A stretch of DNA of 33,638 nucleotides from a virus. Below are positions 202-10,544 of this stretch, in pieces. Both the position numbers and the translations under genes were made by a program. The stretch covers positions 1 to 33,638 of IMG/VR virus record IMGVR_UViG_3300020283_000015, one strand, 5' to 3'. Position 1 is the stretch's first letter, and every line of letters begins with the position of its first letter. The notes beneath the pieces were generated by a model, which made no database searches, was not told the origin of the DNA, and worked only from the letters and a program-made list of their open reading frames with translations.

Positions 202-2700
202 ATGTCAGAATACTACACTAATGTTGCCATATATGGGCAAAACTTACTCGTCCGCGGTATCAGAGATGGTGAAGAATTCAGGTCAAAGATTAAGTATGAC
301 CCAACTCTTTATATACAATCTGCTACAAAGACAGGATTTACCGATGTATATGGCAATCATCTAAAGCCATTACCATTTGACACAATGGTTGATGCCAGAA
401 ACTTTGGCAAACAGAATGAAGAAACAAATCTAAAAGTATATGGCTTCCCATTCTTTAACTCTCAGTACTGTATTGAACACTATCCAAATGCTGAGAATGA
501 TTGGAAACGTGAAGAAATAAGAACATTCACTATTGATATTGAAGTTAGCTCAGAAGAAGGTTTCCCTGAGCCAGGTGAAGCAGCTCATCCCATCACAGCA
601 ATATGTCTACATGATTCTATTACAGATAAGTTTATTACATTCGGTAATGGTGATTGGTCAAGAAAAGATTCAGTACTTACAGATTCTGATTTGCTAGATA
701 AAATTGTATATGTACCATGTAATTCAGAAAGACAGATACTTGATTTCTTTATAAAGTATTGGTCAGACCACTATCCACAAATTGTGACAGGTTGGAATAC
801 ACAATCATTTGATATGCCATATATTCATAATCGTATGGTAAAACTAGGCTTTGATGTTAAAAGACTCTCACCATGGGGTCTTACCCGTATCAAAGAGTTT
901 CCTACTAAACAAGGTACTCAGATGCGTGTTGAGATTACAGGTATCGATGATATTGATTATCTTGACAGATATAAAAAGAATGCTGTACAAGAATCATATC
1001 GTCTTGACCATATTGCCTTCATCGAACTTGGTGAAAAGAAACTAGATTATAAAGAAGTTGGTTCACTACATAAATTATTCTTTGAAGATTTCAATAAGTT
1101 TATTGATTATAATATTCAAGATACTAATCTTGTCAAAAGACTTGACGATAAGATGGGATTGATTGATGTTCAGATTGCTGTAGCATATAAAGCAGGTATT
1201 AACTATGAAGATGTATCTGGTGTTGTTAAAACCTGGGATGCTATGATTAATAAAGAAATGTTCTTTGAAAAGAAGATACCACCATTTAGTTTTCCAAGAA
1301 CTGGATTTACTGAAGCTATTCCAGGCGGTTATGTAAAACCACCACAAGTTGGTAAACATGGATGGGTTGCTTCATTTGATTTGAACTCTCTATATCCTCA
1401 CCTTATTATGCAATATAATATATCACCTGAAACTATCATGGATAAATTGCAAGTATGGCCGGATATCTCTGAAGAAAAGCGTATGCGCGATTTCTTACAT
1501 GGTAAATCATTTAAATCACAAGGTGATTTTGCTGTGGCTGCTTCAGGCTGGATGTTTAAGAAAGACTTTGAAGGTATCATACCAAGAGTTATGCGTAAGC
1601 TATATGATGAACGTAAACAAATTCAAGGTGTAATGAAGAAGAAGCAGAAAGAAGGTGGTGATATTACCAAACTTCATCTTGCTCAATACGTTCGTAAAAT
1701 CCTATTGAACTCAGGTTATGGTGCAATCACAAACAAGTATTACAGATGGTTTGACCCAAGACTTGGTTCTAGTATCACATTATCCGGTCAGTTTGTAATT
1801 CAACGTGCTGAAATGGCAATCAATAGATATCTTAACAAGCTCTTAAAGACAGATAAAGTTGATTATGTTATTGCAATTGATACAGATTCAAACTATGTAA
1901 ATCTTCAACCATTGGTTGATAAGTTCTTCGCAGATAAATCTAAAGCGGAAGTTGTAGATATTCTTGACAGAGTCTGCGAAGAACAACTAACCAAAGCTCT
2001 TAATAAAGAGTTTGATTCAATAGCTGAATATCAAAATGTATATGCTCAGAAGATGGTTATGGGTAGAGAAGCTATTGCAGATGCAGCATTCTGGACAGCA
2101 AAGAAAAGATATGCAATGAATGTCCATGATATGGAAGGTTATAGACCTGAAAAACCAAAGATTAAGATTCAAGGTCTTGAAGCCATTCGTTCAAGCACAC
2201 CTCAAGGCTGTAGAGAACCACTACTAAAACTTATTGAATTAGTACTAACAACTGATGAAGATACAGTCCAGAAAGCGATTGCCAACTTCAAGAAGCATTT
2301 CCTTACACTACCTGCAGAAGACATTGCATTTCCTAGAACTATGAATAATGTATGGCAATATACACCAAGAGATAATATTGGTTTCAAGAAAGGTACACCA
2401 CCACATATACGTGGTGCAATACTATACAATAGATTAATTAATCAACACAAACTCGATAAAGATTGGGAATACATCAAGAATGGTGAGAAAGGTAAATTCC
2501 TATGGCTTAGAGAACCTAATAATGTAGGTTCTGATGTTGTATCATATATGACTTCTATTCCTGATGAATTTAAAGTCAGAGATTATATCAACTATGAAAA
2601 AATGTTTAGTAAAATTATTGCTGAACCTATGGAAGGTATACTCGATCCTATCGGTTGGACTATTGAAAAGCAACTAGATCTAACAAATTTCTTTGAATAA
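202..2700 (+). CDS. 43: DNA polymerase, T4 gp43 type (family B)
   Basis: This is the replicative polymerase, with 3'-5' proofreading exonuclease and polymerase domains in one chain of 832 residues (T4 gp43 has 898). The Exo I motif DIE is at residues 112-114, the same numbering as the T4 catalytic Asp112 and Glu114. The exonuclease region continues with WNTQSFDMPYI. Polymerase motif A is SFDLNSLYPHLI, motif B is the KILLNSGYGAITNKYY segment, and motif C is IDTDSNYV with the catalytic DTD. The start at 202 is the only sensible one and has no Shine-Dalgarno sequence. It lies 7 nt after a TATAAT box, so the mRNA may be leaderless. It follows regA as in T4. The shorter length reflects compact inter-motif regions; no frameshift is seen. 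Confidence 0.97.
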   Translation: MSEYYTNVAIYGQNLLVRGIRDGEEFRSKIKYDPTLYIQSATKTGFTDVYGNHLKPLPFDTMVDARNFGKQNEETNLKVYGFPFFNSQYCIEHYPNAENDWKREEIRTFTIDIEVSSEEGFPEPGEAAHPITAICLHDSITDKFITFGNGDWSRKDSVLTDSDLLDKIVYVPCNSERQILDFFIKYWSDHYPQIVTGWNTQSFDMPYIHNRMVKLGFDVKRLSPWGLTRIKEFPTKQGTQMRVEITGIDDIDYLDRYKKNAVQESYRLDHIAFIELGEKKLDYKEVGSLHKLFFEDFNKFIDYNIQDTNLVKRLDDKMGLIDVQIAVAYKAGINYEDVSGVVKTWDAMINKEMFFEKKIPPFSFPRTGFTEAIPGGYVKPPQVGKHGWVASFDLNSLYPHLIMQYNISPETIMDKLQVWPDISEEKRMRDFLHGKSFKSQGDFAVAASGWMFKKDFEGIIPRVMRKLYDERKQIQGVMKKKQKEGGDITKLHLAQYVRKILLNSGYGAITNKYYRWFDPRLGSSITLSGQFVIQRAEMAINRYLNKLLKTDKVDYVIAIDTDSNYVNLQPLVDKFFADKSKAEVVDILDRVCEEQLTKALNKEFDSIAEYQNVYAQKMVMGREAIADAAFWTAKKRYAMNVHDMEGYRPEKPKIKIQGLEAIRSSTPQGCREPLLKLIELVLTTDEDTVQKAIANFKKHFLTLPAEDIAFPRTMNNVWQYTPRDNIGFKKGTPPHIRGAILYNRLINQHKLDKDWEYIKNGEKGKFLWLREPNNVGSDVVSYMTSIPDEFKVRDYINYEKMFSKIIAEPMEGILDPIGWTIEKQLDLTNFFE

Positions 2701-2703
2701 TAG

Positions 2704-2711
2704 TATAAATA
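2704..2711 (+). promoter_or_regulatory. T4-type late promoter TATAAATA
   Basis: An exact match to the T4 late promoter box lies 4 nt after the gene 43 stop codon. With usual T4 late spacing, transcription would begin at about 2717, which is the first base of the riboswitch P1 stem. Confidence 0.65.
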
Positions 2712-2715
2712 TTAT

Positions 2716-2850
2716 ACGTTCATCAACTTTTTAGTTGACGGAAGTAGGCAAAACCTGAAAACCTCCCTATTCTTAGGGGAAAGCAAGTACCTTCTTTTTG
2801 GGTCAATAAATCCAGAAGGGAACGAGACCGAAAGTTTGCTGAAGGAACGC
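2716..2850 (+). ncRNA. Glutamine riboswitch (glnA / Downstream-peptide class)
   Basis: The sequence carries the conserved core of glutamine-binding RNAs by recall of the family. A 5' strand CGTTCA at 2717-2722 is followed by a hairpin TCAAC-ttttt-AGTTGA (about 2723-2738). Then comes the invariant ACGGAAGTAGG (2738-2748), and after an insert CTGAAGGAACGCG (2839-2851). CGTTC 2717-2721 pairs with GAACG 2845-2849 as P1. The insert contains two further hairpins, CCCTA/TAGGG (2765-2778) and CCTTCT/AGAAGG (about 2790-2819), as expected for the longer Downstream-peptide form. Such RNAs occur in picocyanobacteria, cyanophage and marine metagenomes and normally sit before very short genes. Here the next gene encodes 40 residues. 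Confidence 0.85.
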
Positions 2851-2902
2851 GTTGAGAAGGGTGTACGTCGTGAGATGTATGTACGAAATCGATACGAAAA
2901 CC

Positions 2903-2907
2903 GGAGG
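2903..2907 (+). promoter_or_regulatory. Ribosome binding site of the riboswitch peptide
   Basis: GGAGG lies 4 nt before ATG 2912 and decides the start codon. GGAGGT 2903-2908 is exactly complementary to ACCTCC 2761-2766 inside the riboswitch insert. Masking of the site by the unliganded or liganded RNA is therefore possible; this is inference. Confidence 0.7.
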
Positions 2908-2911
2908 TAAT

Positions 2912-3034
2912 ATGTACTGCTATAGAGGTATCAAATACGATGCAAAGACCTTAAAAAGCAAGGCTAAGAAATCCAAAGCGAGAAAAAGTGATGAAATCAC
3001 TTATCGTGGGATTACTGGCAAAGTTGCTGCTTAA
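2912..3034 (+). CDS. Small YRG-repeat peptide under riboswitch control (DUF4278-like)
   Basis: This encodes 40 residues starting MYCYRGIKYD and ending TYRGITGKVAA. The middle is very basic (KSKAKKSKARK). The two YRG motifs, one at each end, resemble the small cyanobacterial and cyanophage DUF4278 proteins by recall. The open frame extends upstream to 2852, but that part lies in the riboswitch, and the strong GGAGG site fixes the start at 2912. The gene is enclosed by a late promoter, a glutamine riboswitch and a terminator, so it is a single-gene transcription unit expressed late and tuned by glutamine. Its function is unknown. In cyanobacteria some glutamine-riboswitch peptides act on nitrogen metabolism, for example glutamine synthetase inactivating factor; whether this one does is speculation. 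Confidence 0.75.
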   Translation: MYCYRGIKYDAKTLKSKAKKSKARKSDEITYRGITGKVAA

Positions 3035-3055
3035 GCTCATTGCAACAGTATTTGG

Positions 3056-3084
3056 AAAGGGGAGGAAACTCCCCTTTCTTTTTT
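3056..3084 (+). terminator. Rho-independent terminator
   Basis: A perfect 9-bp stem AAAGGGGAG/CTCCCCTTT with a GAAA tetraloop is followed by CTTTTTT. It ends the riboswitch-peptide transcript. It is the clearest intrinsic terminator in the window. Confidence 0.92.
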
Positions 3085-3096
3085 AATAAATAATAC

Positions 3097-3483
3097 ATGG
3101 CAAAACAATTAGAAGATATACTTAAAGAGTATGATGGCGATATAGACTCATTCATTGAGATGATTGAAAAACTCAAAGAAGATGAAGGAGAACAAATATC
3201 AAAAGGAAAGAATGCTCTTGAGAAATCAGATGATGAAGAAGAAAAAGAAGTAGCTGATGGTGAAGCATCCATCGGAGATGTACAAGCCGCTTCTCCAGCA
3301 AGTGTACCAGGAGAAGTTCCTGGTGCTAATGTTGCTATTGGAAATAAAACCTTTGATAATGATAAAGCAGACGCTGACGAAACACAAGAAATAAAGTTAA
3401 GCGGAAAAAAAGATAAAATCGTGACTAAGCCGCAGACAAAGGTAAATCCTAGCGAGTATGGTCATATCGATGCAGCTGGATAA
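3097..3483 (+). CDS. Acidic hypothetical protein
   Basis: This 128-residue protein is not recognised. The N-terminal 55 residues are helical and very acidic, with a run of D and E near residues 45-52. The middle is rich in Gly, Ala, Pro and Val, and the C-terminus is lysine-rich. This low-complexity, probably disordered composition would suit a scaffold or prohead-core type protein, but nothing more supports that. There is no Shine-Dalgarno sequence. An AATAAATA box (3085-3092) sits 4 nt before the ATG, right after the terminator. It overlaps the next gene by a few bases, suggesting coupling. Confidence 0.7.
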   Translation: MAKQLEDILKEYDGDIDSFIEMIEKLKEDEGEQISKGKNALEKSDDEEEKEVADGEASIGDVQAASPASVPGEVPGANVAIGNKTFDNDKADADETQEIKLSGKKDKIVTKPQTKVNPSEYGHIDAAG

Positions 3484-4436: not shown

Positions 4437-5282
4437 ATGGTAATGGAAGTCTCGTGCCCAGCTTGCGGTACACAGCCGAGCTTTGTCTATAATGACTCTG
4501 ATATAGAAATGTTTCTATGTCATGGCTGTCAACGCAATTCAAGATGGGAGTATATTAAGAATGCTTTTGGTGACAACAACAAGTCTGATTCTACTAGGAA
4601 TCGCGTTCACATCAAAGTCTCAGCGAATCATAACAACTTGTTATCTGATATGCAGAGGGTTATTGATATGGACGACTCTCATATATGCGTTCAGTTTATA
4701 CGGGATAGGAGGATTCCTATTCACTATCGCGGCCTCTTTTACTATACTCAAGATCTTGGAAAGCTCGTTAATCGGTACGGGTACAATTTCAAAGATTCTC
4801 AAGAAAAAATAATCATACCATTTTTTGATGAAGATGGTAAGTTATTTGCTCTTCAAGCAAGAGCATTAGACAACTCATTACCTAAATATATTACTATATT
4901 GTTGGATAAAGATAAAGGTAAGATCTTTGGTCTTGAAAGATGGAACAAAGATGAAACTACTTACTTAGTTGAAGGTCCAATAGATAGTTTATTTTTGCCT
5001 AATGCTCTCGCGATGGCTGGTTCAGACATCACAGAAAATAAATATAGTAATTCAGACATAATAGTATGTCTAGACAATGAACAGCGAAATGCAGAAATAG
5101 TTTCTAAATATTCAAAGTTCATTGATAGGGGTTTCAAAATTGTAATTTGGCCTGATAACATAAGAAGTAAAGATATTAATGACATGATTTTAGAAAACCT
5201 TAATCCCCTCCAAATAATTCAAGAAAATACTTACCACGGCCTAGCAGCCAAAATTAAACTCGATAATTGGAAGAGAGTTTGA
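4437..5282 (+). CDS. 61: DNA primase, T4 gp61 type
   Basis: This primase would make RNA primers for lagging-strand synthesis together with the gp41 helicase encoded at 15541. It has 281 residues (T4 gp61 has 342). The zinc ribbon is CPAC at residues 7-10 and CHGC at 28-31. The Toprim domain has YLVEGPIDSLFL (catalytic Glu) and a later IIVCLDNEQRN (acidic metal ligand). Between them lies an IPFFDEDGKLFALQAR segment like the pre-Toprim fold of DnaG-type primases. ATG 4437 fits a -10 box at leaderless spacing; ATG 4443 is an alternative. The stop overlaps the nrdA start (TGATG). Confidence 0.88.
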   Translation: MVMEVSCPACGTQPSFVYNDSDIEMFLCHGCQRNSRWEYIKNAFGDNNKSDSTRNRVHIKVSANHNNLLSDMQRVIDMDDSHICVQFIRDRRIPIHYRGLFYYTQDLGKLVNRYGYNFKDSQEKIIIPFFDEDGKLFALQARALDNSLPKYITILLDKDKGKIFGLERWNKDETTYLVEGPIDSLFLPNALAMAGSDITENKYSNSDIIVCLDNEQRNAEIVSKYSKFIDRGFKIVIWPDNIRSKDINDMILENLNPLQIIQENTYHGLAAKIKLDNWKRV

Positions 5283-7270
5283 TGATTGACATAGACAAAA
5301 AACAAGATTCACTGTTAGCAGATTACGCAGTGAGCATGCTCAAAGATTTTTATATGAGACCCTCAGAAAAATCACCACAAGAAGCATACGCTAGAGCAGC
5401 ATTAGCCTGGTCAAGATTTAATGGTAAAACTGATAAAGAACTTGCACAAAGAATATATGACTATGCAAGTAAGAAATGGTTTATGTTTGCATCGCCAGTT
5501 TTATCAAACGCACCTAACGGCAAACCGAATGAAGATAAAGGTATGCCTATTAGTTGTTTCCTAACATATGTACCTGACACACTTGAAGGTTTGATTAGTC
5601 ATTCATCAGAACTAAGATGGTTATCAGTATATGGTGGTGGTGTTGGTGGTCACTGGTCAGATGTACGTACTATTTCTGATATAGCACCTGGACCAATACC
5701 ATTTTTACATACTGTAGATGCTGATATGATTGCATATAGACAAGGTAAAACACGTAAAGGTTCTTATGCGGCTTATATGGATATCAGACATCCAGATATT
5801 TTAGAATTCATGCAACTTAGAATTCCAACAGGTGATGTACAAAGAAAAGCACTCAACATTCACAACGCCGTAAACTTAACAGATGACTTTATGAATGCTG
5901 TAATGAATGATGAAGAGTGGGAGTTCAAAGACCCGAATGATAATAGAGTCACAGATAAAATGCCTGCAAGAAAAATATGGCAACAATTATTAGAAACAAG
6001 ATTTAGAACAGGAGAACCATATCTTAATTTTATTGATACTGCAAACAAAGCACTACCAGAACCACTGAAAAAAGCAGGTCTTAAAATCAATGGTTCTAAT
6101 CTATGTAATGAAATACATCTACCTACAAGTGAAGATAGAACAGCAGTGTGTTGTTTATCATCACTCAATTTAGAATATTATGATGATTGGAAAGATACTA
6201 CAATTGTAGAAGATCTAATCACCATGTTAGATAACGTATTAGAATACTTTATACAAAATGCACCTGATACTATTGAAAGAGCAAAGTATTCAGCAGCACG
6301 TGAGAGATCTCTAGGTCTTGGAGCCATGGGTTTTCATTCTTACTTACAAAGAAAAGGATGTTCTTGGCAAACGGAGGTGGCTCGTGAGTATAATACTAAT
6401 ATATTTAAGACAATTAAGGAGAGAGCAAATGAACAAACTGAATTATTGGCAAAACAAAGAGGAGAATATTTAGACGGTAATGGAAGTTCTAAACGCAATT
6501 CTCACCTATTGGCAATCGCTCCCAACGCTTCTAGTGGTATCATTCTTTCTACTTCTCCTTCTATTGAACCGCTAAAAGCAAATGCTTATACACACAGAAC
6601 TAGAGCCGGTAGTTTTTTAGTTAAAAACAAATATCTAGAAAGACTCTTAGAAAGAAAAAAAGAAAATAAAAATGGTGTGTGGAAGAGTATTATTACTAAT
6701 AAGGGTTCTGTACAACATTTAACTTTTTTATCAGATGAAGAAAAAACATTATTTAAAACAGCAGATGAACTCGATCAAAGATGGGTTGTTCAACATGCGG
6801 CTGATAGACAAGAATATATTTGTCAAGGTCAAAGCGTGAATTTATTTTTCCCATCAGGTTGTGATAGAGCATATGTAAATGATGTGCATTTAAAAGCATG
6901 GAAAGAAGGATTAAAAGGTTTGTACTATTTAAGAACAGAAGCTAAAGTTAGAGCAGAAACTGTAGCAGACAAAGTTGCAAGAGTAGCTCTAGTTGATAAT
7001 GACAGAAATGTTATATATGGAAAAGATGATTGTCCATTCTGTCACATGGCTAAAGAAGAATTCAGAATTCGAGGAATTCCGTATGACTTTATCAATATTG
7101 AAAAACTTGGTAAGACGGCTGCGGAAGTGACTGGAAGGAAGGATGTTAAAACTGTCCCACAAATTTATCTTAAAGGTGAATATGTAGGTGGTTATGACGA
7201 GTTCATGTCCTTTATAAATAAAGGGCAAGAGCAAAACAATGAAGATGAATGTCGAGCCTGTGAAGGTTAG
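5282..7270 (+). CDS. nrdA: Ribonucleotide reductase class I alpha subunit with internal glutaredoxin
   Basis: This enzyme reduces ribonucleotides to deoxyribonucleotides for phage DNA synthesis, with NrdB encoded just downstream. The ATG at 5282 overlaps the primase stop; a TTG at 5267 is in frame but less likely. The length is 662 residues, and the N-terminal ATP cone of host enzymes is absent or reduced. Catalytic motifs are visible: PISCFL (first redox Cys), NLCNEIHLP (Asn, radical Cys, Glu), TAVCCLSSLNL (second redox Cys) and LYYLRTEA (radical-transfer Tyr pair). Residues about 575-645 form a glutaredoxin domain with DDCPFCHMAK, TVPQIYLKG and VGGYDEF. The last residues are DECRACEG, a CxxC tail like that of normal NrdA. 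The glutaredoxin is thus inserted between the core and the redox tail. Confidence 0.95.
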   Translation: MIDIDKKQDSLLADYAVSMLKDFYMRPSEKSPQEAYARAALAWSRFNGKTDKELAQRIYDYASKKWFMFASPVLSNAPNGKPNEDKGMPISCFLTYVPDTLEGLISHSSELRWLSVYGGGVGGHWSDVRTISDIAPGPIPFLHTVDADMIAYRQGKTRKGSYAAYMDIRHPDILEFMQLRIPTGDVQRKALNIHNAVNLTDDFMNAVMNDEEWEFKDPNDNRVTDKMPARKIWQQLLETRFRTGEPYLNFIDTANKALPEPLKKAGLKINGSNLCNEIHLPTSEDRTAVCCLSSLNLEYYDDWKDTTIVEDLITMLDNVLEYFIQNAPDTIERAKYSAARERSLGLGAMGFHSYLQRKGCSWQTEVAREYNTNIFKTIKERANEQTELLAKQRGEYLDGNGSSKRNSHLLAIAPNASSGIILSTSPSIEPLKANAYTHRTRAGSFLVKNKYLERLLERKKENKNGVWKSIITNKGSVQHLTFLSDEEKTLFKTADELDQRWVVQHAADRQEYICQGQSVNLFFPSGCDRAYVNDVHLKAWKEGLKGLYYLRTEAKVRAETVADKVARVALVDNDRNVIYGKDDCPFCHMAKEEFRIRGIPYDFINIEKLGKTAAEVTGRKDVKTVPQIYLKGEYVGGYDEFMSFINKGQEQNNEDECRACEG

Positions 7271-7476: not shown

Positions 7477-8439
7477 ATGACTGTATTAGAAGACAGTAAA
7501 GCTTATAAGCCTTTTAATTATCCTTGGGCAGTTGAGCTGACCAAGAAACATGAAGAGGTACATTGGGTCGAGGATGAAGCAGAATTATCTGAAGATGTTC
7601 AAGACTGGCGTACTAAATTATCAGAGCAAGAAAAAGACTTTATTGTGAATATACTACGGTTATTTACTCAATCTGACGTTCAAGTTGGTGCTAACTATCA
7701 TGACTTTCTTATTCCAAAAATGAGAAATAATGAAGTAAGAACTATGCTTGCATCGTTTGCTGGTAGAGAAGGTGTACATCAAAGAGCTTATGCTCTATTG
7801 AATGATACGCTAGGTTTACCTGAATCAGAATTTCATGCATTCTTAGAATACAATGAGATGGCAGATAAGTTAGACTTTATGGCTAACAATAATATTACAT
7901 CTCATACTGGTCTAGCATTAGCGCTAGCTCAGTCAGTATTTAATGAAGGCATGAGTTTATTTGCTTCATTTGTAATGCTACTTAATTTCCAACGTTTCGG
8001 TAAAATGAAAGGTATGGGTACAATAGTTGAGTGGTCAATTAGAGATGAAACACTACACGTTCAAGGTAATGCGAAATTATTTAGAACATTCTGCGAAGAA
8101 CATCCGCGTATTGTAAATGATGAATTAAAATCTAAAATCTATCAGATGGCAAGAAATGCTGTTAAGTTAGAGGATAAATTTATAGATCTTGCTTACAAAG
8201 AGAATGAAGTCGAAGGACTAAGTATCGATGAAGTAAAGGAATATATTAGACATATTGCGGATAGAAGATTATTACAATTAGGACTTAAAGCTAAATTCAA
8301 AGCTAAAGACAATCCACTACCATGGTTAGATTGGGTACTAAACGGAGTATCTCATGATAACTTCTTTGAGAAAAGAGTCACAGAATATTCAGTGAATGGT
8401 TTGGAAGGTGATTGGGGTTGGAAAGAAGTAGCTGCTTAA
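7477..8439 (+). CDS. nrdB: Ribonucleotide reductase class I beta subunit
   Basis: This is the ferritin-like subunit that holds the di-metal site and tyrosyl radical and forms the active complex with NrdA. It has 320 residues, slightly short for the family. The ligand and radical residues are all present. An Asp lies in LFTQSDVQV. REGVHQRAY gives Glu, His and the radical Tyr with the spacing of E. coli Glu115, His118 and Tyr122. A Glu lies in VFNEGMSLFASF, and a Glu/His pair in IRDETLH. The ribosome binding site AAGGAG precedes ATG 7477. Its stop codon overlaps the stop of the minus-strand gene that follows, with no terminator between. Confidence 0.96.
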   Translation: MTVLEDSKAYKPFNYPWAVELTKKHEEVHWVEDEAELSEDVQDWRTKLSEQEKDFIVNILRLFTQSDVQVGANYHDFLIPKMRNNEVRTMLASFAGREGVHQRAYALLNDTLGLPESEFHAFLEYNEMADKLDFMANNNITSHTGLALALAQSVFNEGMSLFASFVMLLNFQRFGKMKGMGTIVEWSIRDETLHVQGNAKLFRTFCEEHPRIVNDELKSKIYQMARNAVKLEDKFIDLAYKENEVEGLSIDEVKEYIRHIADRRLLQLGLKAKFKAKDNPLPWLDWVLNGVSHDNFFEKRVTEYSVNGLEGDWGWKEVAA

Positions 8440-9080
8440 AGATAATCAGTCAGATCTTGATCTGTTGTTATTGTAGCTGCTAATCTTGGCATTCTCCATC
8501 CATCATTTACAACCTGATGTGGAATATCTACTCTGAGCAGAGTGGCCTTATTTAAGGTCACCTCTGCTATCTTATCACACTCTTCAGGTATATATGTTCT
8601 AAACTTCATTCTTCCAGGTTCTTTATCTACATGTGGTTTCCACCAAATAGTTCTAGACTTTTCACAATTAAAAACAGGTATATTAATACGAGTCTTTATA
8701 TCCCATGGCGGTATAACGTAATCTAACTCATGAAGTGGATCAGTTCTAAACTTACCTGTTTCTAAATCCATAACTACATCATCAGAATGTATTGGTGATT
8801 CTTTTTCCCACAAACAAAAGAATGATACATTTATAATTTTACCATATTCCTGTAATGACCTTTGTAATGATGGACATTTTTCTAATATGTCTTCATAAAT
8901 ATCTGGATATGAGTTTCTCCAGAAGCCACCTTCAGTACTAGCTTGACCAATGGCACGTTCTATTGAAAGACCAGTATTTATTGGTGTAAAAAGATCTGGA
9001 TGCAATATCTTTGTATAGTTCTGCAACTCTAAAATAATAATACCTAAGTTTGGTATGTCTAATTCTTTGTAAGGTAGCAT
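8436..9080 (-). CDS. 2OG/Fe(II) oxygenase-like protein, paralogue 1
   Basis: This 214-residue protein has the HxD...H...R signature of 2-oxoglutarate/Fe(II) oxygenases: His98 and Asp100 in SPIHSDD, then His188 and Arg199 in IPHQVVNDGWRMPRLAA. A conserved block KTRINIPVFNCEKSRTIWW lies between them and probably forms core strands and part of the substrate pocket. It is closely related to the next minus-strand gene (same N-terminal YKELDIPNL and same C-terminal block), which marks a tandem duplication. Its start overlaps the upstream gene by 22 nt. It is last in a minus-strand operon. The substrate is unknown; protein, nucleic acid or small-molecule hydroxylation are all possible. Confidence 0.72.
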   Translation of the reverse strand: MLPYKELDIPNLGIIILELQNYTKILHPDLFTPINTGLSIERAIGQASTEGGFWRNSYPDIYEDILEKCPSLQRSLQEYGKIINVSFFCLWEKESPIHSDDVVMDLETGKFRTDPLHELDYVIPPWDIKTRINIPVFNCEKSRTIWWKPHVDKEPGRMKFRTYIPEECDKIAEVTLNKATLLRVDIPHQVVNDGWRMPRLAATITTDQDLTDYL

Positions 9081-9745
9081 GTTAGGTCTTTATCCATGGT
9101 TAGTGTGGCTGCCAATCTTGGAAATCTCCAGCCATCGTTTACAACTTGATGAGGTATGTCAACTCTTAATATTGTAGCCTTTGATAATGTAATCTCTGCC
9201 AGTTTACTACATTCATGTTCTTTATAAGTTCTGATAGGACCATTTAAAATAAAAGTCTTTTCTTCTTTAGGTTCCCACCATACAGTTCTAGATTTTTCAC
9301 AATTGAATAGTGGTATATTGATTCTAGATCTAACAATAAAATCTGGAAACTTTTCGTATAGATGCTTATGTTCAGGATTCATTCTAGTTTTTTGATCGTA
9401 TAGATGCATGACAGTATCATCTGAATGTATGGGTGATTCTTTTTGCCATAGACAAAAGAATGCTAAGTTAACAACTTCACCATATTCTTTTAATGATTCT
9501 TGTACAGTAGGACATTCTTCTAATACATCTTGATATACATCTGGATATGCATTTCTCCACATACCAATATCTACATCATATTGCTTTTCCCACATTGCTT
9601 CAGCTGCTAATCTAGAAAATGGTGTATCTGTATTTATGGCTTGGTACAAACCTGGGTGTATGTTCTTTGTATAGTTCTGTAGCTCAGTTATAACCTTATC
9701 TAGGTTTGGTATGTCTATCTCTTTAAATGGTAAGTCTATCTTCAT
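9059..9745 (-). CDS. 2OG/Fe(II) oxygenase-like protein, paralogue 2
   Basis: This 228-residue protein is a close paralogue of its downstream neighbour. Putative iron ligands are His107 and Asp109 in SPIHSDD and His199 in IPHQVVNDGW; Arg210 would bind the 2OG carboxylate. The core block is RSRINIPLFNCEKSRTVWW. The N-terminus FKEIDIPNLDKVITELQNYT is nearly the same as in paralogue 1. Start and stop overlap both neighbours by about 20 nt, so the genes are translationally coupled. Retention of all ligands in both copies argues that both are active rather than one decaying. Confidence 0.72.
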   Translation of the reverse strand: MKIDLPFKEIDIPNLDKVITELQNYTKNIHPGLYQAINTDTPFSRLAAEAMWEKQYDVDIGMWRNAYPDVYQDVLEECPTVQESLKEYGEVVNLAFFCLWQKESPIHSDDTVMHLYDQKTRMNPEHKHLYEKFPDFIVRSRINIPLFNCEKSRTVWWEPKEEKTFILNGPIRTYKEHECSKLAEITLSKATILRVDIPHQVVNDGWRFPRLAATLTMDKDLTCYLTKN

Positions 9746-10544
9746 CTATAAATCCTACGGTTGCTGCTACTCTTGGAAATTTCCAACCTTTATCTATAAC
9801 AACTTGATGTGGTTCATTCACTCTTATAATAGTTGGTTTCAATAACTCTACTCTTGATACTTCAGTCACTTCATCTTCATGAAAAACATTATAGTGTGTA
9901 CCGTCAGGTACAAATACTTTCTTACCATCTTTTGATTTTAAATTAGCATACTCTACAATATGAGATTTACCACTTACATCTACCTTTTCACCCATTAAAT
10001 GTTCATATTGCATTTTACCAATAACACTCTTTATTGATTCTGGATTAGCCATCTTTTTTAAATCAACTGGTCTTGCGACAGGTGCTGTAAGATTTGGTCC
10101 ATCGTAAGCTGCAATATCTGGAATACCATGAGCTATAAACCATCTTGTATGTGTTTTAGCACAGTTCTGAATAGGTATATTGATTCTTTTAGTTGCTTCT
10201 GGTAGACCATCACCAACAGCATCATAATTATCTGTATGTATAGAACAGTCTCTAGATAACATAACAAAGAATCCTACACTTCTAATCTCACCAAATAATG
10301 GTTCAAATACATCCCATAAAGATGGACATGCATTCCTCAATCCTTTATATGGTTCTGGCCAACATCTTCTCCACAGTGGTTTACCCATACCAAGAGATAT
10401 TTCTGGTCTAGTCTTTGTAGTAAACTTAAGCATCTCGTCTCTGACTATTTCCCAGCCAGGTACATCTAGTTCTCTAAAATATTTGTAGTTCTTGGTCCTA
10501 TCATCATTAGATATTTTGGCCTTGAAATCTTTATATTCCTTCAT
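9723..10544 (-). CDS. 2OG/Fe(II) oxygenase-like protein, paralogue 3 (longer)
   Basis: This is a more diverged 273-residue member of the same family. The signature is His103 and Asp105 in CSIHTDNYD, a core block KRINIPIQNCAKTHTRWF, then His246 and Arg258 in PHQVVIDKGWKFPRVAA. Compared with its two neighbours it has an extra segment of about 50 residues between the core block and the distal His (around KKMANPESIKSVIGKMQYE). The N-terminal YFRELDVPGWEIVRDEM corresponds to the FKEIDIPNL start of the other two. It overlaps both adjacent minus-strand genes. The substrate is unknown. Confidence 0.7.
   Translation of the reverse strand: MKEYKDFKAKISNDDRTKNYKYFRELDVPGWEIVRDEMLKFTTKTRPEISLGMGKPLWRRCWPEPYKGLRNACPSLWDVFEPLFGEIRSVGFFVMLSRDCSIHTDNYDAVGDGLPEATKRINIPIQNCAKTHTRWFIAHGIPDIAAYDGPNLTAPVARPVDLKKMANPESIKSVIGKMQYEHLMGEKVDVSGKSHIVEYANLKSKDGKKVFVPDGTHYNVFHEDEVTEVSRVELLKPTIIRVNEPHQVVIDKGWKFPRVAATVGFIDEDRLTI

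Follow-up and report, generated by a model that had tools for sequence, protein, structure and literature searches.

A putative late-expressed glutamine riboswitch–YRG peptide unit in a T4-like phage, with counterparts in SAR86 chromosomes

The virus record IMGVR_UViG_3300020283_000015 (33.6 kb; the whole stretch of 33,638 nucleotides is called the window below) has a T4-like gene content (gp43, UvsX, NrdA/NrdB, primase) and carries, in the gap that separates gp43 (202-2700) from the following gene at 3097, a compact unit on the plus strand composed of a T4-type late promoter, a glutamine-I riboswitch aptamer, a gene for a 40-residue YRG peptide and an intrinsic terminator. The original prediction had described this order of elements but overlooked a conserved domain inserted in the P3 arm of the aptamer, a second helical platform after P1 and the chromosomal occurrence of the unit in SAR86 bacteria. 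With moderate confidence, we read the locus as a self-contained late unit of a T4-like marine phage, a SAR86-type copy that would have received a new promoter and in which glutamine would switch on a peptide acting as a feedback effector.

We assigned the aptamer using the Rfam covariance model RF01739 (gathering cut-off 35 bits), which matches positions 2715-2853 at 46.0 bits (E 6.3e-9). The original prediction had named the glnA and Downstream-peptide RNAs together as a glutamine-binding class and proposed a covariance search with both models: the glnA part is confirmed by this significant match, while the Downstream-peptide class (glutamine-II; RF01704) was dropped, as its model found no match in the interval 2600-3150 at E values up to 10. 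Note that a default whole-window Rfam scan missed the RF01739 element, perhaps because of the insert held by P3; this miss is not general, since ten insert-bearing relatives were found at the gathering threshold. The three-helix junction P1/P2/P3 is present with its loop-E strands. P1, formed by CGTTC (2717-2721) and GAACG (2845-2849), is invariant in 48 viral units, and P2 (2723-2738) covaries, its first four positions being paired in 48/48 units with 3-5 pair types each. The core strand CGGAAGTA (2739-2746), a loop-E strand containing ligand-side nucleotides, is nearly invariant; it is followed by the P3 5′ strand (2747-2752), pairing with 2835-2840, and the P3 3′ strand, GAAGG and the P1 3′ strand together span 2835-2849. 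In the window, CGGAAGTAGG begins at 2739 and GAAGGAACG at 2841, and a sequence check located promoter, P1, core strands, short gene and perfect terminator where the original prediction had placed them. The ligand contacts of the glutamine riboswitch are the P1 terminal pair, the adjacent C and a linker G (PMC6698751); under a putative mapping of the numbering, these nucleotides fall in CGTTC/GAACG and in the GG of CGG, which are invariant in the 48 viral units. Glutamine riboswitches have mM affinities for their ligand and, in front of gifB and DUF4278 genes, work as ON switches (PMC6316151; PMC6698751), and the window RNA would, judged from its sequence, also bind glutamine.

We defined an insert class as 48 distinct viral sequences sharing the P3 insert and the platform after P1, all of which precede a YRG peptide. 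The insert, ~86 nt long in the window and a ~70-100-nt two-hairpin domain across the class, contains a conserved stretch (2757-2831) made of the joint GAAAACC (2757-2763), the hairpin P4 (2764-2779), the joint AAAGC-AAGTA (2780-2789), the hairpin P5 (2790-2819) and the joint GAACGAGACCGA (2820-2831). One segment pattern fits all 48 viral units and 24/25 distinct SAR86 units. Among the viral units, the joints GAAAACC, AGC, AGTA, GAAC and GAGACCGA hardly vary, and the P4 and P5 hairpins differ in sequence with their pairing kept. The platform (2850-2896), which leads to the ribosome-binding site, consists of P6 (2850-2852 with 2894-2896) enclosing P7 (2864-2869 with 2874-2879), P6 and the P7 core being paired in 43/43 units each with at most four pair types; all 45 distinct platform matches have the 3′ aptamer core upstream, and five units in which the platform interior is replaced keep a P6-like stem.

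P2 and P4-P7 are paired in nearly every one of the 48 units with several pair types. Observed pairing compared with a shuffled expectation, which ignores the relatedness of the sequences, is 48/48 against 23 for P4 position 5, 48/48 against 22 for P5 position 1, 43/43 against 20 for P6 position 2 and 43/43 against 17 for P7 position 5; given several pair types per position, inheritance alone is an unlikely cause of the kept pairing. RNAalifold recovered P1, P2, P4, P5 and P7 independently from 31 representatives. Rfam holds no model for the inserted domain, which was not seen outside glutamine aptamers in the sequences searched: a first genome scan for its pattern returned 118 matches, most of them due to chance, and the full core accompanied only the three from SAR86. 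The inserted P3 domain with the second platform is a new predicted RNA architecture.

The unit is framed by expression signals that recur in its relatives. The late promoter TATAAATA lies at 2704-2711, and in 33/48 viral units the late-type motif HATAAATA lies no more than 50 nt upstream of P1, compared to 2.0% of random stretches, its usual distance to the aptamer core being 15-16 or 30-35 nt. This agrees with the late promoter originally proposed. At the other end (3055-3084), a 10-bp stem closed by a GAAA loop (3055-3078) precedes T6; a perfect terminator follows the ORF in 18/48 viral units versus 1.7% by chance. A chance or artefactual origin is ruled out by the aptamer score, the covarying helices in 48 relatives and the enrichment of promoter and terminator. 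The viral units occur in several genomic contexts. Two close relatives (L125/L126, 7480-7530; gp43 92% identical) lack the unit and keep the 3′ half of the terminator, so that its absence reads as a deletion and the unit is not essential. A match of 22.6 bits in these relatives to R1, a covariance model of the insert class built only from viral sequences, was judged false as Rfam did not find it, and as a result no weight was given to weak R1 scores. Further along the window, a single ORF (5267-7270) encodes an NrdA-like reductase with a C-terminal thioredoxin/glutaredoxin-like domain, and the minus strand at 8436-10544 encodes three adjoining look-alike proteins (..KELDIPNL..LQNYTK..) with no PHROG matches.

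The Shine-Dalgarno sequence GGAGG (2903-2907), located 4-9 nt before the ATG in relatives, precedes an ORF of 40 codons (2912-3034) that starts with ATG at 2912 and ends with its stop at 3034. A longer ORF from TTG 2852 or from an upstream ATG was rejected because the upstream frames differ between close relatives and GGAGG-ATG is kept. The short gene encodes a real peptide, as originally claimed, since selection on it is purifying (pooled pN/pS 0.32; ~0.07 when the window is compared with its relative L074); a constraint on YRG at the RNA rather than the protein level was rejected from the same pN/pS and from the variation of the Y, R and G codons. The window peptide (MYCYRGIKYD...TYRGITGKVAA) matches PF14105 (DUF4278) with E 1.6e-4 at 22.4 bits, below the curated cut-off of 25.3, a threshold exceeded by relatives with 25.7 and 26.5 bits; all 19 aligned relatives match at E 0.01 or better (best 2.2e-8), and no other family was matched by the 40 residues. 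By these profile matches, the YRG peptide is a member of DUF4278, the family that most often lies behind glutamine riboswitches in cyanobacteria (PMC6316151). The original prediction considered the role of the peptide undescribed, which holds for its action but not for its association with glutamine riboswitches, described for DUF4278 in the same paper. Most viral relatives contain two or three YRG[IV]K[HWY] repeats, and the window peptide is a small basic one with a net charge of +9. Its AlphaFold model is of low confidence (pLDDT 67, pTM 0.21), and a PDB profile search with the peptide gave nothing meaningful and no structural relative.

The aptamer core was found at no fewer than 119 loci in viral contigs. 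YRG is present in about half of the readable downstream peptides (61/120 among the matches listed), the remaining products among these matches being other short proteins, several of them behind tandem aptamers. The Synechococcus phage S-CREM1 has an annotated glnA riboswitch directly before the YRG protein SCREM1_206 (OP535465), and in S-SSM5 and P-TIM40 weak matches to glutamine-II or glutamine-I lie close to DUF4278 genes; the basic riboswitch/YRG pairing in phages is thus not new. Neither the peptide nor the 381-nt unit, used directly as queries against isolate phages, found a match, nor did a composite YRG query of plasmids. Several viral loci (L007, L011, L020, L048, L060 and others) have a second riboswitch-controlled family of small proteins (MTKYQ...ITDNPFYP), with no Pfam or NCBIfam match, and others (L005, L021, L031, L061, L027) encode basic peptides of 33-37 aa (MTMWTRYCR...), several behind tandem glutamine aptamers; a 43-aa basic peptide occupies the matching position in a SAR86 genome (L451). 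In the cyanophages S-SM2 (L405), P-RSM6 (L406), S-SSM5 (L139) and P-TIM40 (L140), a glutamine-aptamer core precedes a conserved small protein, T4-GC 430 in S-SM2 and S-SSM5, that ends with ..WDAND where translated. In S-SSM5 and P-TIM40 a DUF4278 gene comes after this protein, and in P-TIM40 a manA RNA (1703-1897, 141.7 bits) lies just downstream of the DUF4278 gene.

We then turn to the bacterial copies, for which the SAR86 label refers to three single-cell genomes titled SAR86 and to the order around one of them. The full unit is present in all three single-cell genomes, in one case on a 495-kb contig where it is flanked by era and recO, and two of the three copies adjoin ammonium transporter genes (amtB). 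R1 matches at 138-179 bits in 42/203 SAR86-order genomes, chromosomally where read. Among 369 Gammaproteobacteria strong matches are confined to SAR86-order genomes, and among 398 Pseudomonadota the only one is the SAR86 centre genome; as far as tested across these three sets, the insert-class variant does not appear to be cyanobacterial. A YRG peptide follows every SAR86 insert-class locus that was read. The late promoter is found in 0/25 distinct SAR86 units, 15 of which have a promoter of the TTG-N-TANNNT type. Phage and SAR86 peptides reach 85% identity (one pair), and phage and SAR86 copies interleave in the tree, where most of the mixed nodes are weakly supported and one group has a support of 83.

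Ordinary RF01739 aptamers, often in tandem, exceed the Rfam cut-off in 81/202 SAR86-order genomes. Those opened mostly precede genes for glutamine synthetase (GS; types I and II), for glutamate synthase or for YRG peptides; single or tandem copies at 60-71 bits stand before GS type I/II and glutamate synthase at L449, L450, L453, L454, L455 and L456. The GS leaders have a common downstream element, unlike the YRG platform. These homologues and their nitrogen-gene context support the nitrogen theme of the original prediction, and the literature on SAR86 and riboswitches has no title on glutamine riboswitches among the matches listed. Because the same unit resides in SAR86 chromosomes and SAR86 places glutamine switches on nitrogen genes, the virus has probably borrowed its unit, a nitrogen gauge, from a SAR86-like host.

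We propose that the RNA would start just before P1 and that the glutamine-I aptamer would fold with the extra domain on its P3 arm. High glutamine would most likely stabilise P1, with the P6/P7 platform stacking beneath, which would leave GGAGG free and turn on translation of the short basic YRG-repeat peptide. We infer this translational ON control from studied relatives. Ensemble folding speaks neither for nor against it: the probability that the Shine-Dalgarno sequence is unpaired is 0.41 in the free RNA and 0.50 with P1/P2 forced, it rises in only 26/48 units, and no single anti-Shine-Dalgarno partner emerges. A simple sequestration by CCUC in J3/4 is unsupported by this folding. The source unit in SAR86-type bacteria would belong to a glutamine-sensing regulon for ammonium uptake and assimilation, the peptide being most likely a feedback effector on ammonium assimilation, and the late promoter would keep glutamine-dependent control running after host transcription stops. 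The phage might thereby redirect host nitrogen metabolism.

Folding does not settle the direction of the switch, and an OFF switch, by which glutamine represses a peptide that aids assimilation under nitrogen shortage, would suit an aptamer class that precedes SAR86 GS and glutamate synthase genes, where repression by glutamine is expected. We regard this as unlikely given that the glutamine riboswitches tested before DUF4278 genes are ON switches (PMC6316151, PMC6698751) and that the YRG platform differs from the GS leaders. Within the favoured ON reading, the peptide could, as a special case of feedback effector, inhibit glutamine synthetase directly like cyanobacterial IF17, whose N-terminal part is covered by DUF4278 (PMC6316151) and which the small and basic character of the peptide may recall. 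This too is improbable: inhibition does not require that N-terminal part, which contributes to stability (PMC6316151), the GS-binding part of IF17 beyond DUF4278 is absent from the 40-aa peptide, and the phage peptides tested have no match to the IF family and no structural relative.

The identity of the host bears on where the unit came from. The best 40 matches of gp43 come from cyanophages or from unassigned marine viruses placed in Kyanoviridae, which, with the S-CREM1 pairing and with glutamine riboswitches and DUF4278 being typical of cyanobacteria (PMC6316151), would fit an ordinary cyanophage whose unit mimics the glutamine-riboswitch/DUF4278 genes of a picocyanobacterial host. However, gp43 falls outside the compared cyanophages (only ~41% identical) and pelagiphages (~39%), psbA was not found in 33 records that are related or similar (some 1.4 Mb in all, one of them a relative of 152 kb), blastn of a phage collection found no insert-class match, and the insert-class variant resides in SAR86 chromosomes, which leaves this origin quite unlikely. 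The host cannot be named from the core genes of the phage, as gp43 is 40-44% identical to its sole strong SAR86-order match and about as close to cyanophages; a SAR86-like host is consistent with the unit and with the GC content (34%), and is not proven. The SAR86-order genome G217 contains this T4-like polymerase on contig 62 (L440, L442, L457), possibly a phage contig.

It is distinctly unlikely that the RNA takes two inputs, the P3 insert serving as another aptamer or binding a protein, so that the peptide needs glutamine and another signal: joints that hardly change across 48 viral and 24 SAR86 units despite the sequence variation of P4/P5, the resemblance of AGUA/GAA flanking P5 to a loop-E module and the lack of a Rfam model would suit it, but the insert could be a tertiary clamp or a stability element, and the domain was not seen outside glutamine aptamers in the sequences searched. 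That the insert senses a second ligand or protein in a two-input riboswitch common to SAR86 and phages and absent from Rfam is very doubtful.

In the literature, glutamine riboswitches are confined to cyanobacteria, and those in front of GS, PII and ammonium-transporter genes are known as environmental sequences of uncultured strains (PMC6316151). SAR86, an abundant uncultured group, has such riboswitches before GS and glutamate synthase and the elaborated variant before YRG/DUF4278, in some cases beside amtB; these copies may explain some of the environmental sequences so far unaccounted for, and they give DUF4278 a consistent nitrogen context outside cyanobacteria. The phage apparently swapped the promoter of a host sensor gene and retained its RNA sensor. 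No SAR86 phage had been isolated as of 2017 (PMC5332604), and the unit offers a sequence clue to such phages.

Compared with the known glutamine-I riboswitch (glnA RNA, RF01739), the window shares the P1/P2/P3 junction and the AGUA/GAA loop-E sequences, but its P3 carries the two-hairpin domain and its P1 is followed by the conserved P6/P7 platform. Glutamine-II (RF01704) also has the CGUUCA...GGAACG ligand core and is likewise followed by short peptides, and differs by its pseudoknot architecture. The cyanobacterial gifB/DUF4278 genes, in the portion of Klaehn et al. 2018 relayed by PMC6316151, likewise place a glutamine riboswitch before a DUF4278 protein; the window unit differs from what is relayed there in being carried by a phage, with a T4 late promoter, a peptide limited to DUF4278 and a variant found in SAR86. 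The methylophage Melnitz, which infects a streamlined marine heterotroph, also has a glutamine riboswitch, located at ssrA (tmRNA) rather than before a YRG peptide (PMC9004378). S-CREM1 comes close, as a YRG peptide directly follows the glutamine riboswitch of this phage, a pairing left undiscussed in the accessible part of its paper (PMC9964418), whereas its P3 insert is unrelated to the domain described here and no P6/P7 platform sequence is seen. Overall, the phage riboswitch–YRG pairing was already annotated in S-CREM1, and what is new is the architecture of inserted domain and platform together with its occurrence in SAR86.
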